Part shown: positions 3,826 to 17,305 of the stretch, piece after piece
Layout of the letters: each line of letters begins with the position of its first letter
Position numbering within the stretch: the first letter of the stretch is position 1
Assembly (NCBI GenBank): GCA_964036665.1
Contig: OZ038533.1
Location: 19,216,575 to 19,280,574 of the forward strand
Length of the DNA stretch: 64,000 nucleotides
Reading direction: 5' to 3'
Source of the DNA: Gordius sp. MW1
Taxonomy: Eukaryota > Nematomorpha > Gordioida > Gordea > Gordiidae
The notes under the pieces: model-generated
Told to the model about the DNA's origin: nothing
The model's database searches: none
Seen by the model: the letters and a program-made list of their open reading frames with translations, nothing else
Position numbers and translations under genes: made by a program

Positions 3826-5034
3826 CTATATAGTTTTTTTTCTTTCGATGAAATCCCTAACCGATTGATCCCACCACCATAGTTCCCTATTCATAGCTTT
3901 GCCTCCTTTGGTCTGTCCTAGAACACGAATCGCTGTTTTCTTTATGTCCTTAGATAGCGTCTCCCAATCGTCGTCTACGTCCCTTTGCAACTTCCTTGCA
4001 CCCAAGAGTGAGGAGGCTTTTAGATGGTATTCTTCGTTCGTCGACGTATCCTTTAACCTTTCGTATCGAATTCGAGGTTCATAGACTTTTCTTCTTTCGG
4101 GAAATACTCTCCTGTCAAGATCCATAACAAGGGGACGATGTTGCCTGGCAATTTCTTCTCCCGGTATTACTTTGCAATCCTTGATGCTCCATAAGTCCTT
4201 TCGCCGTATAAGCAAATAGTCAATTTGACTAAAATGCTTTCCACTTCTATAGGTCACAATATGATCTTCGCGTTTTTGAAAATAGGTGTTAACGATCGCT
4301 ATGTCATATGCTTAGGATACTTGAAGAAGTTTTTCCCCTTCTTTGTTCTTCAGACCATACCCATAGCCTCCCTGATTGCGTTCATACCCGATGCGATCTT
4401 TTCCTACACGAGCCTTGAAATCGGCCCCAATAAGTAGCCTTTCTTCCTGTCGGATTCCTTGTATTTCTTTTTTTAATGAATCGAAGAATATGTCTTTCTC
4501 TGATTCCATACACCCAATTTGGGGAGCATATGCGCACATAACGGTTAGGAGGCCCCCTTGATCTGCTAACTTCACCCACGTTAGCCTGTCGGAACAACGC
4601 TTGACTTCCACGACCTTGTCCTTGAACGATTCGCTTAGAACGATACCGACCCCGTTTCTACGATTTGGTGACCCACTGTAAAAAGGCTTGTATCCTTTTC
4701 CTAATTCCCGAGCTTTCGTTCGGTTCCACCTTGTCTCTTGTAGGCAGGTGATGTGTACGTTTCTTCTTTTTAGCATTTGTGCGACCTTGATGCTCTTTCC
4801 CGTCAGCGTTCCCACATTCCAGCACGTTATTCGCATTCTTTCAACAACTAATTTCCTTAACCGCCTTTGTTGTGAGTTGGGCAGTAACCCTAGTGTATTT
4901 TTCACATTGCACGGGCGGGGTATGCAGTGCGCGTCGTTTGTGGAGGACGCCTTAGCCTTTTCTTGTAAAATCTTGTTTGAAACTATCATAACTTTGGAGT
5001 TGGTTTTTAGAGCCAGTTTCCGACCTGACGCCAA
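3826..5034 (-). pseudogene. LINE endonuclease (APE type), two frames
   Basis: Encodes the apurinic/apyrimidinic-type endonuclease that nicks target DNA for LINE insertion. The first 240 codons (5034-4312) show the start of the fold (MRITCWNVGTLTG), the catalytic-glutamate motif LQETRW, the AYAPQIG strand and a GADFKARVG segment where the family usually has GDFN. The second part (4257-3826) has QIDYLLI and the terminal ARQHRPLVMDL histidine region. A frameshift near 4260-4310 separates the parts, so the protein is not made. It lies directly upstream of the RT region of the same element. Confidence 0.85.
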
Positions 5035-12625: not shown

Positions 12626-15600
12626 ATGTTTTCACTCCTAAAAGTTATCTTCCTAGTGTCGCTGATAGCCAAGTGGTCAGGCAAGTATCATTTAATCCTA
12701 TGTGATAAATTTATTATAATTATAAAAATCGTTTGGATATGTATTTTATCATAATTCTCTTTTTTTTTATTAAAGAAGCCCAAGAAGTACCCCTGCAAAT
12801 CCGCTCTCCTACGTCCTCGTCGTGCAGGGGGGACAACAGATCCTAATATCTGGCTAAAGGAGAAACGGTCCGTGTTACTCAGAAAGACTGCTGAAAATGT
12901 TAAAGTGACACGGCTCATACCTTTCTATATGTGGATTCGTTTATATGGAAAGGTTTCAAAAGAATGGTCCTTTAGAACTCACCCTCTAAGGAAAACGACT
13001 CAAACCCCTGTGATCTGGGGTCAGAATAGGATCTCCGCTCCTCGCGAATCGTACAAACCGACGAAGAGGTTGGCGCCAGGAAGGGCATCCGGCTGTAAAA
13101 CCTGCTCCAATCTCCCCCTATGAATACAAAGGCGAATGGGCGGGGTACAGCCCTAAGTACCCCGTGGGTTAACTCATCGACCTACGTCAAAAAGAAAGAT
13201 GAGGATCCTGGCCAAATCGTTTTGGGAACTCCGCAAGGATTCCCTCCTAATGATGGTCATCGACCTGAAAATATTCGAGGAGGCCGGTCTAAAGGCTACA
13301 CCCTAAGGGTTGCAACCTGGAACATAGGGAGCATGACGGGAAGAGCGGGCGAGGTAGTGGAAGCACTCAATCGGAGAAGGATAGATATATGCTGCATACA
13401 GGAGACAAGGTGGAAAGGAGAGGGTGCTAGGATGATGGGAGCCATTGGTGCGCGGTATAAATTCTACTGGCAAGGGCACAAGGATGGAAAAGCTGGTATA
13501 GGAATACTTGTCGCTGAGAAATGGGTGGACAAAGTTATCGATGTCAAGCGATGGAATGACCGGATTATAGTTATAAAGATGGCGATGGGAGAAAGGCTAT
13601 TCAACGTTATATCGGCCTACGCCCCTCAAGTAGGAAGAAGCGATGAAGAAAAAGACATTTTCTGGGATCGTCTGATGGAAATTACTTCCCACCTTCAAGA
13701 ATCTATTATTTTAGGCGGGGATCTAAACGGACATGTTGGCGCGAATATCGATGGTTATGAAGGTGTCCATGGTGGTCACAGCTACGGAACCAGGAACACG
13801 GAGGGGGAACGCATTCTGGATTTTGGGGACGCTACTCAGATGGTTATATGCAATACTTTCTTCAAGAAAGAAGACAGGAAGCTTATAACCTATGAATCGG
13901 GCACCCTCAAAAGTACTGTCGATTATATGATGGTCAAAAAATCGGACAGATGTATGGTGAAAAACGTCAAGGTTGTCCCTGGGGAAGAATGCGTGACACA
14001 ACACCGTCTTATTGTTGGGGATCTCGTAATGAAGGGGCTTATAAATCCAAAGAAACGCTATATCCCGAGACTCAAGGTGTGGTGTTTGAAAGATGATACT
14101 CAAAAGAGGGATTTTGCCGAAGCACTTGATGGAACCTCAGTGGAGATGGCGAAGAACGTAAACGACAAATGGACGGCTATGAAGAATGCTTGGCTTGACA
14201 CAACATCGCGCGTGTGTGGTTGCACAAAGGGGCCCCCAAGACATAAGGAAACTTGGTGGTGGAACTCTGAGGCGGCTAAAGCTATCGAAGATAAAAGGCG
14301 TTGCTATAAAGTCTGGCATGAATCTCAACAAAGGTGCGATAAGGTTATGTATCAAGAGGCTAAAAGAATTGCAAGAAGGACCGTCGCCAGAATAAAGGAA
14401 ACAAAAAGATGCGAGTTTGCTCTACGCCTTGACTCAGAGGAAGGGAAGAAAAACATGTTTCGTGTAGCCAAACAAATGGCGAAAGAACGACTCGATGTTG
14501 TGGCGACTAAATGCGTTACGCCGGCGGGTAACATCATCTCCCATGGCGATGGAATCAAAAAAGTTTGGGAAGACTATATGAAACGACTCTTAAACGAAGA
14601 GAATACCTGGGACAATGACGTTGTTTGTGATAAAGTGAAGGGACCCTGCTGCTGGATTGGGACTGACGAAATTCAGCGTGCCATAAAGAAAACGAAACAA
14701 GGTAAAGCGGCAGGCCCAACAGGAATAGTGGCGGAGATGGTAAAAGCTTCTGGACATTTGGGAGTCGTTTGGCTTACACAGCTGTGTAATGCCATAATTC
14801 AGGAAGGGACTATACCTAGCGATTGGAAAAAGAGCGTTCTTCTACCAATCTACAAACGAAAAGGCGACCCACTTGACTGCGGATCATATCGGGCTATTAA
14901 GCTCCTCGACCAAACTATGAAAGTTATAGAGAGGGTGCTCGAGAAAAGAATCCGGGAACAAACGTACATCGACGCTATCCAGTTCGGATTTAAACCAGGG
15001 AAAGGGACCACCGATGCCATCTTTATAGTACGACAGATGCAAGAAAAACACCAAGCAAAAGGGAAAAGACTATACTACGCCTTCGTAGACCTAGAGAAAG
15101 CGTTCGATCGGGTGCCGCGGGAAGTTGTAAAATGGGCTCTTAGGAAAACAGGTGTGGAAGAATGGTTGGTTACGGCTGTGATGGTTATGTATGACGAATC
15201 TCAAACAGCAGTGAGGACCCACGATGGCGATAGCGAAAGCTTTGAAGTGAAGGTTGGGCTACACCAAGGTTCCGTTTTAAGCCCCCTACTTTTCATACTC
15301 GTAATGGAGGTGGTGACAAAAGAACTGCGAGATGGACTTCCATGGGAACTTTTATACGCCGATGATCTCTTGATAATGGGTGAGAGTGAGGCTGATCTCT
15401 TTAAAAAGATACAAAAATGGAAAAACGGAATGGAGAAAAAGGGCTTAAAAGTTAACATGGGAAAAACAAAGGTGATGTTTGGCGGGAAAAGTACGAAGAG
15501 CGCCGAGACAACTTGCGCCTGGCCCTGTAGCGTATGTCACAAAGGAGTGGCTAGCAACTCTATACAATGTACAAAATGCCTAGGATGGGTTCACAAAAAA

Positions 15601-17284
15601 TGTAGCGGTGTGAAAGGAAGTCTTTTATTGGCAAGCCGTACTTTTAGCTGCAAGCCCTGCGTGACAGGACCTCTACCGGATAATGCCATAACCGACTTTA
15701 ACATCGGTAATGGGGAGACGCTAGGAAAAGTTAACACCTTTACCTATCTCGGGGACTCTTTAAGTGCAGATGGGAATGTTGACTCGGCAGTTACAGCAAG
15801 GATACGACAAGCCTGGAAGAAGTTTAGAGAGATGGCCCCTCTTTTGACCGGAAAAGGTGTTTCACTCACTTTAAAGGGTAAAGTCTACGCGGCATGTATT
15901 AGAAGTTGTCTTGTATATGGAAGCGAAACGTGGCCTTTAATGTCGATACATAAAGCCAAATTGGAAAGCACAGAAATGCGTATGATAAGATGGATGTCAA
16001 ACGTGTCGCTACGGGAAAGAATAACAAGCAATAGACTCAGAGAAAAAATCGGGATCGAGCCAATCAACGAGGTCATCCGGAAAAACAGGCTAAGATGGTT
16101 TGGACATGTGGAGCGGAAGAATGACGACGACTGGGTGAAGAGATGTACTTCCCTGGAGGTATCTGGAAAGAAACCGCGCGGGAGGCCGAAATCAACATGG
16201 GCCTCTGTTCTAGCTACCGACATGGAAGCAATGGGTCTGACAAAACAGGATTCGCATGCTCGGATAAAATGGAGGAAATGCATTAGGGGAAAACAGGCTA
16301 ACCCAGGAGATCCTGGAAAACGGCCTTAAAACGATGAAGAAGAAGAAGAAGAAGAAGAAGAAAGAAGCCCAAGAAGTATGAGCTTAAATGTTAACGTGTG
16401 ATTTTATGATTAACATTTCCAGTTTTTTATAATTATACTTGAATTATCTCAATTTCTAGGCCAACGTGTAAGTATTTGCCTTTTACCATTATGACTTTGA
16501 CTTATAAATTTTATTAATTCAGAGATAAACCTGTGGCTTCATTGGATGCTCTTAAAGTTGAAGGTTAGTGCTTATAATTATGGAATAATGATAACATTTT
16601 TAAATACACGCTTAACTGGGGGTTATTTTATTTTATTTGTAATTATAAAGCGCCAGTACAAAGTAACAATTTGCCAATAATTTGTTATTAAAATAGTTAT
16701 GAAGTAGCTTTAAGCTTAGTTTTAAAAAAAAAAATTTCTTTAAATGCTTAAATAAATTTAAATTATATTCGTTATACCATATGTATTAATAAAACTCCCT
16801 TTAGGGTCAACTGAAACTCAATTCTATACATGATACTTAAAATATCTTTTTTAGCAAATAAAAATACTTGACGATATCACATGATAATCTATCAACAAAT
16901 GATTGCAACTCTTAATTGTATCATTATAGTTAGTATGTCCGTGCCAGAACTTGGAAGTAAACAGCCTATAATAAACAACATGAACAAATCTATATCAATT
17001 TTACTGTACACGTTCTTTCTTGCTAATTTTTTCATTTATTTTAGATAATAACGGCTCTGCAATATTTACACCTGTGGAGGCTAACGTAGTAAATATATAA
17101 CTAAATTTAGAATACTTAAATATAATAATCATCTATAATTTTCATGCATATTTAAATTATTTTTTTGACAAATATACAGACATCGCCTATTGATGGAAGA
17201 ACCGTTCATGAGAGCAAAGATGAAACTGAAATTCTTCCTACCGCCGAAGAATTGATGCTTTCTTATAAACCGATAATTCATTAA
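12626..17284 (+). CDS. Predicted small secreted protein (4 exons, LINE in intron 1)
   Basis: Inferred gene of exons 12626-12680, 16525-16563, 17045-17085 and 17180-17284 (240 nt, 79 residues plus stop). Exon 1 encodes a textbook signal peptide: MFSLLKVIFLVSLIAKWS. The mature part is hydrophilic and acidic (DKPVASLDALKVE, DNNGSAIFTPVEAN, then a 34-residue last exon ending SYKPIIH). Donors are GCAAGT (a GC donor with perfect AG|GCAAGT context), GTTAGT and GTAGTA; acceptors end AGAG, TTAG and ACAG. Phases 1, 1 and 0 are mutually consistent, and AATAAA follows the stop by 22 bp. An 8 nt microexon (16460-16467) followed by GTAAGT is an alternative and would shift to another open frame. No homologue recognised. 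It could be a neuropeptide- or secretion-type product, but function is unknown. Intron 1 carries the 3.6 kb LINE. Confidence 0.45.
12790..12863 (+). ncRNA. HDV-like self-cleaving ribozyme at LINE 5' end
   Basis: The first 74 nt of the LINE fold as a nested double pseudoknot in HDV order. P1 is CCCCTGC (12790-12796) with GCAGGGG (12824-12830). P2 is TCTCC (12805-12809) with GGAGA (12859-12863). P3 is ACG (12811-12813) with CGT (12821-12823), closing a 7 nt L3 TCCTCGT. P4 is CAGAT/ATCTG (12837-12841, 12848-12852) with a 6 nt loop. J4/2 is GCTAAA, giving the expected catalytic C at 12854. P1.1 can form from the two C of L3 and GG at 12831-12832. P1 begins at the first base after the target duplication, where cleavage would define the transcript 5' end, as known for R2 and some RTE elements. 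Cleavage itself is not shown. Confidence 0.85.
13120..16329 (+). CDS. LINE polyprotein: endonuclease-RT with PHD finger
   Basis: One 1069-residue ORF. Residues about 60-300 form the APE endonuclease (ATWNIGSMTG, IQETRW, SAYAPQVGRS, GGDLNGHVG, VTQHRLIVGDL). Residues about 490-790 form the reverse transcriptase (GKAAGPTGI, LPIYKRKGDPLDCGSYRAI, AFVDLEKAFDRVPRE, GLHQGSVLSPLLF, catalytic YADD near 745). At about 801-848, just after the RT thumb, lies a C4HC3 zinc finger (CSVC, CTKC, HKKC, CKPC) of PHD type. The tail has SETWPL, EMRMIRW, NRLRWFGHV and PRGRPKSTW. It nicks the target and copies its own RNA there. The role of the finger is unknown; PHD fingers often read histone tails. No stop or frameshift was seen, so it is probably still active. 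GC content is well above the surroundings. Confidence 0.95.
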   Translation: MNTKANGRGTALSTPWVNSSTYVKKKDEDPGQIVLGTPQGFPPNDGHRPENIRGGRSKGYTLRVATWNIGSMTGRAGEVVEALNRRRIDICCIQETRWKGEGARMMGAIGARYKFYWQGHKDGKAGIGILVAEKWVDKVIDVKRWNDRIIVIKMAMGERLFNVISAYAPQVGRSDEEKDIFWDRLMEITSHLQESIILGGDLNGHVGANIDGYEGVHGGHSYGTRNTEGERILDFGDATQMVICNTFFKKEDRKLITYESGTLKSTVDYMMVKKSDRCMVKNVKVVPGEECVTQHRLIVGDLVMKGLINPKKRYIPRLKVWCLKDDTQKRDFAEALDGTSVEMAKNVNDKWTAMKNAWLDTTSRVCGCTKGPPRHKETWWWNSEAAKAIEDKRRCYKVWHESQQRCDKVMYQEAKRIARRTVARIKETKRCEFALRLDSEEGKKNMFRVAKQMAKERLDVVATKCVTPAGNIISHGDGIKKVWEDYMKRLLNEENTWDNDVVCDKVKGPCCWIGTDEIQRAIKKTKQGKAAGPTGIVAEMVKASGHLGVVWLTQLCNAIIQEGTIPSDWKKSVLLPIYKRKGDPLDCGSYRAIKLLDQTMKVIERVLEKRIREQTYIDAIQFGFKPGKGTTDAIFIVRQMQEKHQAKGKRLYYAFVDLEKAFDRVPREVVKWALRKTGVEEWLVTAVMVMYDESQTAVRTHDGDSESFEVKVGLHQGSVLSPLLFILVMEVVTKELRDGLPWELLYADDLLIMGESEADLFKKIQKWKNGMEKKGLKVNMGKTKVMFGGKSTKSAETTCAWPCSVCHKGVASNSIQCTKCLGWVHKKCSGVKGSLLLASRTFSCKPCVTGPLPDNAITDFNIGNGETLGKVNTFTYLGDSLSADGNVDSAVTARIRQAWKKFREMAPLLTGKGVSLTLKGKVYAACIRSCLVYGSETWPLMSIHKAKLESTEMRMIRWMSNVSLRERITSNRLREKIGIEPINEVIRKNRLRWFGHVERKNDDDWVKRCTSLEVSGKKPRGRPKSTWASVLATDMEAMGLTKQDSHARIKWRKCIRGKQANPGDPGKRP

Positions 17285-17305
17285 ATGAATCATTTATTAA
17301 TTTCA

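Follow-up and report, generated by a model that had tools for sequence, protein, structure and literature searches.

The window analysed here, a stretch of 64,000 nucleotides from Gordius sp. MW1, contains on its forward strand a full-length LINE with a predicted HDV-like ribozyme at its first base. The element and its target site duplications (TSDs) are as follows.

12772..12789, + strand: left TSD, 18 bp, abutting nt 1 of the LINE and identical to 16361–16378
12790..16360, + strand: LINE, full length, 3571 bp, with a flush TSD at both ends
13120..16329, + strand: single open reading frame (ORF), 1069 aa, stop-free, with Pfam matches to an APE-type endonuclease, a reverse transcriptase (RT) and, weakly, a PHD finger after the RT
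16336..16360, + strand: (GAA)n 3′ tail of the LINE, read from the sequence
16361..16378, + strand: right TSD, 18 bp, identical to 12772–12789

The LINE and its protein

The copy is young, with 99.4–99.7% identity to three other genomic copies. In its ORF, Pfam recognized RVT_1 (1.8e-32), Exo_endo_phos (4.9e-11) and PHD (5e-4), and no RNase H family was found at E 0.001. The preliminary description had called the element a PHD-finger LINE; a PHD match is indeed present after the RT, but it is weak and below the PHD cut-off. One ORF with an APE endonuclease and an RT and without RNase H is an RTE-type arrangement, and the (GAA)n stretch up to 16360 agrees with it, a short simple-repeat 3′ end being a trait of RTE elements. 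The label RTE-like is our assumption from these general features, as no match listed bears a clade name. A frame that lies upstream and overlaps the start of the ORF was considered as an ORF1 and rejected, being broken in 6 of 11 copies. The ORF has 537 homologous proteins, and among the 120 listed most are on contigs of 2–6 kb; relatives in viral and GTDB contigs were not confirmed. Elsewhere in the window, a minus-strand ORF at 4312–5034 resembles, on reading by eye, the endonuclease region of a further LINE.

The insertion site

Three genomic loci match the joined flanks without the LINE, most clearly L114, and these empty-site paralogues support the junctions 12789/12790 and 16360/16361 independently of the TSD. 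The window and L114–L116 share an exon-like start, which in the window reads MFSLLKVIFLVS... (12626–12680), and a GC splice donor. Read by eye, the window segments 12626–12789 and 16379–17300 and the loci L114–L116 belong to a small family of genes that appear to have several exons, the first of which is signal-peptide-like, and that use a GC donor; the LINE interrupts one member.

Comparison by eye with the three paralogues indicates that the TSD spans the likely 3′ splice site TTAAAG/AAGC, which would place the LINE, in sense orientation, about 14 nt into a small exon. The insertion therefore appears to be exonic, and its earlier placement inside an intron is probably wrong, given splice sites read by eye. 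If the host gene is transcribed, its RNA would reach the ribozyme and be cut.

The predicted ribozyme fold

The first base after the 18-bp TSD opens P1, as had been proposed, with nt 1 at 12790. The predicted cleavage site lies between 12789 and 12790, and the structural parts are listed below with the share of alignment cells that are paired across copies where available.

12790..12868, + strand: predicted HDV-like ribozyme, core 12790–12863 with a P2 extension to 12868, from RF02682, RF01787 and a descriptor
12790..12796, + strand: P1 5′ strand CCCCTGC, partner 12824–12830, 95.8% of cells paired
12801..12809, + strand: P2 5′ strand, core TCTCC 12805–12809 and extension CCG 12801–12803, 91.5% of cells paired
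12811..12823, + strand: P3 (ACG/CGT, strands 12811–12813 and 12821–12823) closing the 7-nt L3 TCCTCGT (12814–12820)
12824..12832, + strand: P1 3′ strand GCAGGGG (12824–12830) and P1.1 GG (12831–12832), by eye and from the copy alignment
12837..12852, + strand: P4 CAGAT/ATCTG (strands 12837–12841 and 12848–12852) with a 6-nt loop, 100% of cells paired
12853..12858, + strand: J4/2 GCTAAA, in which C12854 is the putative catalytic C (C65, invariant in 25 aligned sequences)
12859..12868, + strand: P2 3′ strand, core GGAGA 12859–12863 and extension CGG 12866–12868, by eye and from the copy alignment
12870..12913, + strand: predicted hairpin just 3′ of the ribozyme, containing the breakpoint at 12899–12907 between subfamilies A and B

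The arrangement is that of HDV-like ribozymes: P1 has seven Watson–Crick pairs starting at the predicted cleavage site, P2 crosses P1 in a double pseudoknot, the 3-bp P3 carries an L3 whose CC (12815–12816) forms the two GC pairs of P1.1 with GG 12831–12832, and P4 is followed by J4/2 with C12854. In the window copy P1, core P2, P3, P1.1 and P4 are all Watson–Crick, and reading the sequence by eye places all five helices and the J4/2 cytosine where they had first been drawn. P2 can be extended past a bulge by pairing CCG 12801–12803 with CGG 12866–12868, as in the Rfam alignment of drz-agam-1, and the unit then reaches 12868; pair 15–76 of P2 is open in A-type copies, the window copy among them. 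Counting against the assignment, the first pair of P1 is C-G, and the two best-matching Rfam models begin with G.

The best Rfam match is RF02682 (HDV-F-prausnitzii), which aligns over its full model (1–74) with 12790–12864 at 36.2 bits and E 3e-5. RF01787 (drz-agam-1) aligns with 12789–12868 at 22.8 bits and RF01788 (drz-agam-2-2) scores 12.6 bits, both being ribozyme families that sit in LINEs. The gathering thresholds are 44, 37 and 38 bits, respectively, and no family passes its threshold anywhere in the 64,000-nt window. Thus neither RF02682 nor RF01787 formally claims 12790–12868, thresholds of this kind belonging to single families and not to the HDV fold as a whole. The covariance-model check suggested beforehand gave an end-to-end match from 12790 at a score under the curated cut-off. 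P2 and P1.1 are absent from the structure line of RF02682, so both represent additional agreement.

A descriptor of all helices, run on both strands, matched once in the window and in none of 102 order-1 Markov versions. As it was composed with the candidate in view, this result gauges chance rarity and is not a blind test; together with the whole-model match to RF02682, it bears out the claim that such a set of helices is unlikely by chance. In the minimum-energy fold of 12790–12960, computed with nested helices only (z −2.58 against shuffles), P2 and P4 form and a hairpin at 12813–12834 excludes P1 and P3. The energy program cannot represent crossing helices, so the competing hairpin is a caution and not a refutation.

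A genome-wide search with RF02682 (E up to 10; 61 of 5888 candidates scored) had no copy of the window LINE among the matches listed, and a second Rfam family search (E up to 10; 56 of 9666 candidates scored) listed one, L075, at the place of L039. Of 14 control genomes, 8 and 11 also gave matches in these two loose searches, none of them above the cut-off. Since few candidates were scored genome-wide, these searches say nothing about rarity.

Genomic copies of the 5′ end

With the first 341 bases as query, 40 of 58 candidates were scored, and 24 of these 40 start at nt 1 (a count that includes the window copy and the duplicated pair L011/L015) and 39 within nts 1–14; a 5′-end query misses strongly truncated copies, so these counts are no estimate of the truncation rate. 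A 151-base query gave the same start places. Five of 39 copies (L010, L018, L019, L026 and L038) begin at nt 8, immediately past the P1 5′ strand. A 21-base pattern from P3 to P1, allowing up to two mismatches, matched the genome 38 times, and the reversed pattern did not match.

Both ends could be compared in 29 copies, 16 from a first set (in which the duplicated pair L080/L084 is counted twice) and 13 of 15 from a second. A TSD lies flush with nt 1 in seven of the 29, namely the window copy, L009/L078, L016/L085, L021/L090, L035, L036 and L041; three from the second set and part of that of L021 were read by eye. The other copies have a truncated start, have additional bases between the TSD and nt 1, or yielded no TSD.

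Among copies starting at nt 1 (25 sequences, 17 distinct), 95.2% of cells are paired, versus 37–51% when the partners are slid. Compensatory changes had been named as a further check. Pairing is indeed kept, but among the 17 distinct copies none of 26 pairs has both partners changed, and the observed values are also attained in shuffles; the copies differ too little for covariation to appear. At E 0.1, RF02682 matches 18 of 39 copies (12 of 20 and 6 of 19), eight more match a drz-agam model only, and 13 have no HDV-type match, nine of these being without 5′ bases and four having changes in P1 (L023, L025, L030 and L041). B-type copies score lower, at 29.7 bits; their common sequence differs in P1 (C-G to U-G), J1.1/4 and L4, with every helix kept. 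Helix-breaking changes occur in single copies, for example L023 and L041.

A chimeric young lineage

The 5′ ends form two subfamilies: A has CCCCTGC and a longer L4, and B has CCCTTGC, a shorter L4 and, downstream, an A-tract. The ribozyme fold is intact in the common forms of both. In the B copies L025–L044 and L046, the interval between ribozyme and ORF mostly holds an A-tract of variable length, from about 10 to over 30 As.

Informative sites were taken from the first 400 bases, with the consensus of 12 A and 19 B copies and with L015 and L044–L047 left out. In the window copy, L009, L010 and L012, all 12 such sites up to 12899 are of A type, and all 17 between 12907 and 13160 are of B type; since some are neighbouring gap columns, the sites outnumber the events. 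The breakpoint is sharp (12899–12907) and falls within identical letters of the post-ribozyme hairpin. Over whole copies, identity to the window copy is 98% for B and 92–93% for A, and the first 150 bases are nearer to A. On these sequence comparisons, the young lineage is descended from a single chimeric founder, in which an A-type ribozyme module stands on a B-type body; at least four copies carrying the A-type module derive from that founder. The chimera was likely made by template switching of the RT.

Short 5′ repeats at the predicted cut end

In eight of 39 copies, representing seven insertions (L025, L027, L030, L031, L032, L034 and L011/L015), pieces of the LINE's own nts 1–22 lie directly 5′ of nt 1, and the reversed reference used as a control gave no matches. 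An 8-nt upstream match in L021 does not adjoin nt 1 and was dropped as a ninth case. These pieces have their ends at nts 15–18 (either 18 or 20 if two Cs are shared), the insertion L011/L015 alone ending at nt 22, and come with 0–2 extra bases. L030 holds three full units and one partial, with differing junctions. The order TSD, piece, nt 1 is seen in L025 (15-bp TSD), L031 (12 bp), L034 (10 bp) and L027 (just 6 bp), three of these four TSDs being read by eye; in L030, L032 and L011/L015, no clear TSD was found. Pieces between the TSD and nt 1 must have arisen during integration or been present on the inserted RNA. Added Cs precede nt 1 in L028 and L040, and those of L040 overlap or adjoin the target duplication.

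The repeats are most simply, and probably, explained by an RT that reaches the end of the ribozyme-cut template and jumps back. The tandem duplications of 13–28 nt reported for R2 5′ junctions consist of 28S sequence and are explained by 28S retained on the RNA (PMC3774820). The window LINE inserts at dispersed sites, so that this explanation is unusable for its repeats. The position of the ends at nts 15–18 invites conjecture: the P2 strand may be an accessible landing place, or the RNA may be trimmed to a 5′ fragment of 15–18 nt whose 3′ end takes the jump.

Tentatively, the ribozyme-made 5′ end might serve as a platform, at which the RT repeatedly runs off nt 1, relands on nts 15–22, either on the P2 5′ strand or where the trimmed 5′ fragment ends, and adds units that restore the P1 strand. 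If this is true, then in view also of the A/B swap the ribozyme would be a portable 5′ module that the RT rebuilds, and not a fixed part of the LINE. It is rather unlikely that the short repeats were instead inherited from source copies cut at an upstream P1 strand, with no template jumping. Every full extra unit does have a complete P1 5′ strand, which makes upstream cleavage possible, and L025 and L027 share the same junction, but the other junctions vary among copies and within the units of L030, with 0–2 extra bases, and cleavage at the last P1 would strip the repeats in every cycle.

A second element with an HDV-like 5′ end

The genome-wide RF02682 search also led to a second, distinct element with an HDV-like fold at its own first base. 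It is presumably a LINE, known from its endonuclease ORF: in L069, the ORF after the ribozyme matches an APE-type endonuclease family at 4.2e-11, and the L067 fragment matched nothing. The first base adjoins ACCACAGGGAT in L056, L058, L069 and L070, and other sequence in L048, L067 and L071; Rfam reads ACCACAGGGAT as 28S rRNA in L049 and L069, the loci scanned. In the array C1, represented by L049 (1501–2329) and L056, an insert in 28S, about 835 bases long, is made up of two inverted 5′ ends of this element, both of which match the ribozyme model in L049.

In the fold of the second element, 97.0% of cells are paired, versus 30–50% when slid. Four of its 28 pairs are changed on both sides; three of these belong to P1 and one to P4. 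Covariation scores 0.129 versus 0.086 in shuffles. None of 500 shuffles attains this score, and 19 of them have at least as many doubly changed pairs. The set comprises 11 copies, of which one is decayed and another, L048, was counted though its P1 is shifted by a misplaced gap. GGCTAAA is common to both elements, and the family model built for the window LINE matches the window copy and none of five loci of the second element.

Discussion

In this study, we consider it highly probable that 12790–12868 is an HDV-like self-cleaving ribozyme which defines the 5′ end of an APE-endonuclease, RTE-like LINE, within the cycle proposed below. The RF02682 match, the TSD, the descriptor, the paralogues and the copy starts support the original proposal, which placed such a ribozyme exactly at the 5′ end of a young LINE. 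On this sequence evidence, the ribozyme is real and exactly placed, and it is very probably active. The LINE would be transcribed from upstream promoters, here possibly that of the host gene, as the insertion is in sense. The nascent RNA would fold into the double pseudoknot, with C12854 acting as general acid/base, and a cut between 12789 and 12790 would free a LINE RNA starting at nt 1. In target-primed reverse transcription, the RT would copy to the cut end, so that new copies start at nt 1, and at times it would jump back onto nts 15–22, adding short 5′ repeats.

It is improbable that the window copy holds a degenerate, inactive ribozyme whose fold is kept by recent descent. The score below the Rfam gathering threshold, the family without covariation and the helix-breaking changes in single copies (L023 and L041) would fit such decay, but the helices of the window copy are all Watson–Crick with the J4/2 cytosine in place, and the lineage is young, its chimeric founder having given at least four copies with the module. 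We regard as very improbable a 5′ UTR element without ribozyme activity, involved in protein binding or translation, or a strong RT stop that resembles the HDV fold. In favour of such readings, the GC content of the segment is high, two further hairpins are predicted after it, and the copies that start at nt 8 do so just past the P1 strand. An RT stop, however, does not predict L3, P1.1 or the J4/2 cytosine, and it does not account for nt 1 being the most frequent start; the roles of RT stop and ribozyme are not mutually exclusive. A chance fold at an arbitrary LINE start can practically be dismissed: short helices are common in GC-rich sequence, but the whole-model match, the lack of shuffled matches and the recurrent start at exactly nt 1 speak against it.

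The window LINE, with an active HDV-like ribozyme as the preferred reading, is a clean case of such a ribozyme setting the 5′ end of a dispersed-site LINE that has many close copies in its genome. Each integration is recorded in these copies, as nt 1 starts, nt 8 starts, 5′ repeats, added Cs and a sharp subfamily swap. The last step of LINE integration, with the RT at the ribozyme-cut template end, is poorly understood, and this record makes it accessible to statistics and direct test. For specialists, the integration record and the 28S-inserted second element may be of more interest than the ribozyme itself. An open-access search, which most subscription papers lie outside, found no literature on the window LINE or on its 5′ repeats, and none on an APE-type element that is inserted in 28S and carries a ribozyme of its own.

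Comparison with known systems

HDV-like ribozymes that cut at the 5′ junction are known in R2, R4, Dong, Baggins, L1Tc and RTE (PMC3774820), and trypanosomatid cases have been described (PMC4035085); the rarity implied by the preliminary description was thus overstated, and the window LINE is a well-supported new case of a known kind. Truncated twister ribozymes in RTE elements are mentioned as in preparation in PMC7761336. With the ribozymes of RTE, R4, Dong, Baggins and L1Tc, the candidate shares the topology, the place at the 5′ junction and the predicted cut before nt 1 (PMC3774820).

Among the Rfam families, drz-agam-1 (RF01787) is similar in aligning with 12789–12868 including the P2 extension. 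Ribozymes of the drz-agam/RTE type differ in that the window sequence scores below their threshold (22.8 versus 37 bits), begins P1 with C and has a 5-bp P4, and the window LINE is not identified with any named RTE family. HDV-F-prausnitzii (RF02682) shares P1, P3/L3, P4 and GGCTAA with it. That family is named after a bacterium, and the resemblance is one of the core, from which we claim no descent.

R2 offers a parallel in a LINE RNA processed from a co-transcript and in variable 5′ junctions with duplications (PMC3774820). In contrast, R2 is 28S-specific and duplicates 28S sequence, whereas the window LINE is dispersed and repeats its own nts 1–22. Hybrids of R2 ribozymes with R1, the R2/R1 hybrid SIDEs, likewise carry a ribozyme module on the body of another element and are attributed to template jumping (PMC3414825). 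In the window chimera, unlike these hybrids, both partners are subfamilies of the same LINE, and the coding capacity for the full protein is retained.
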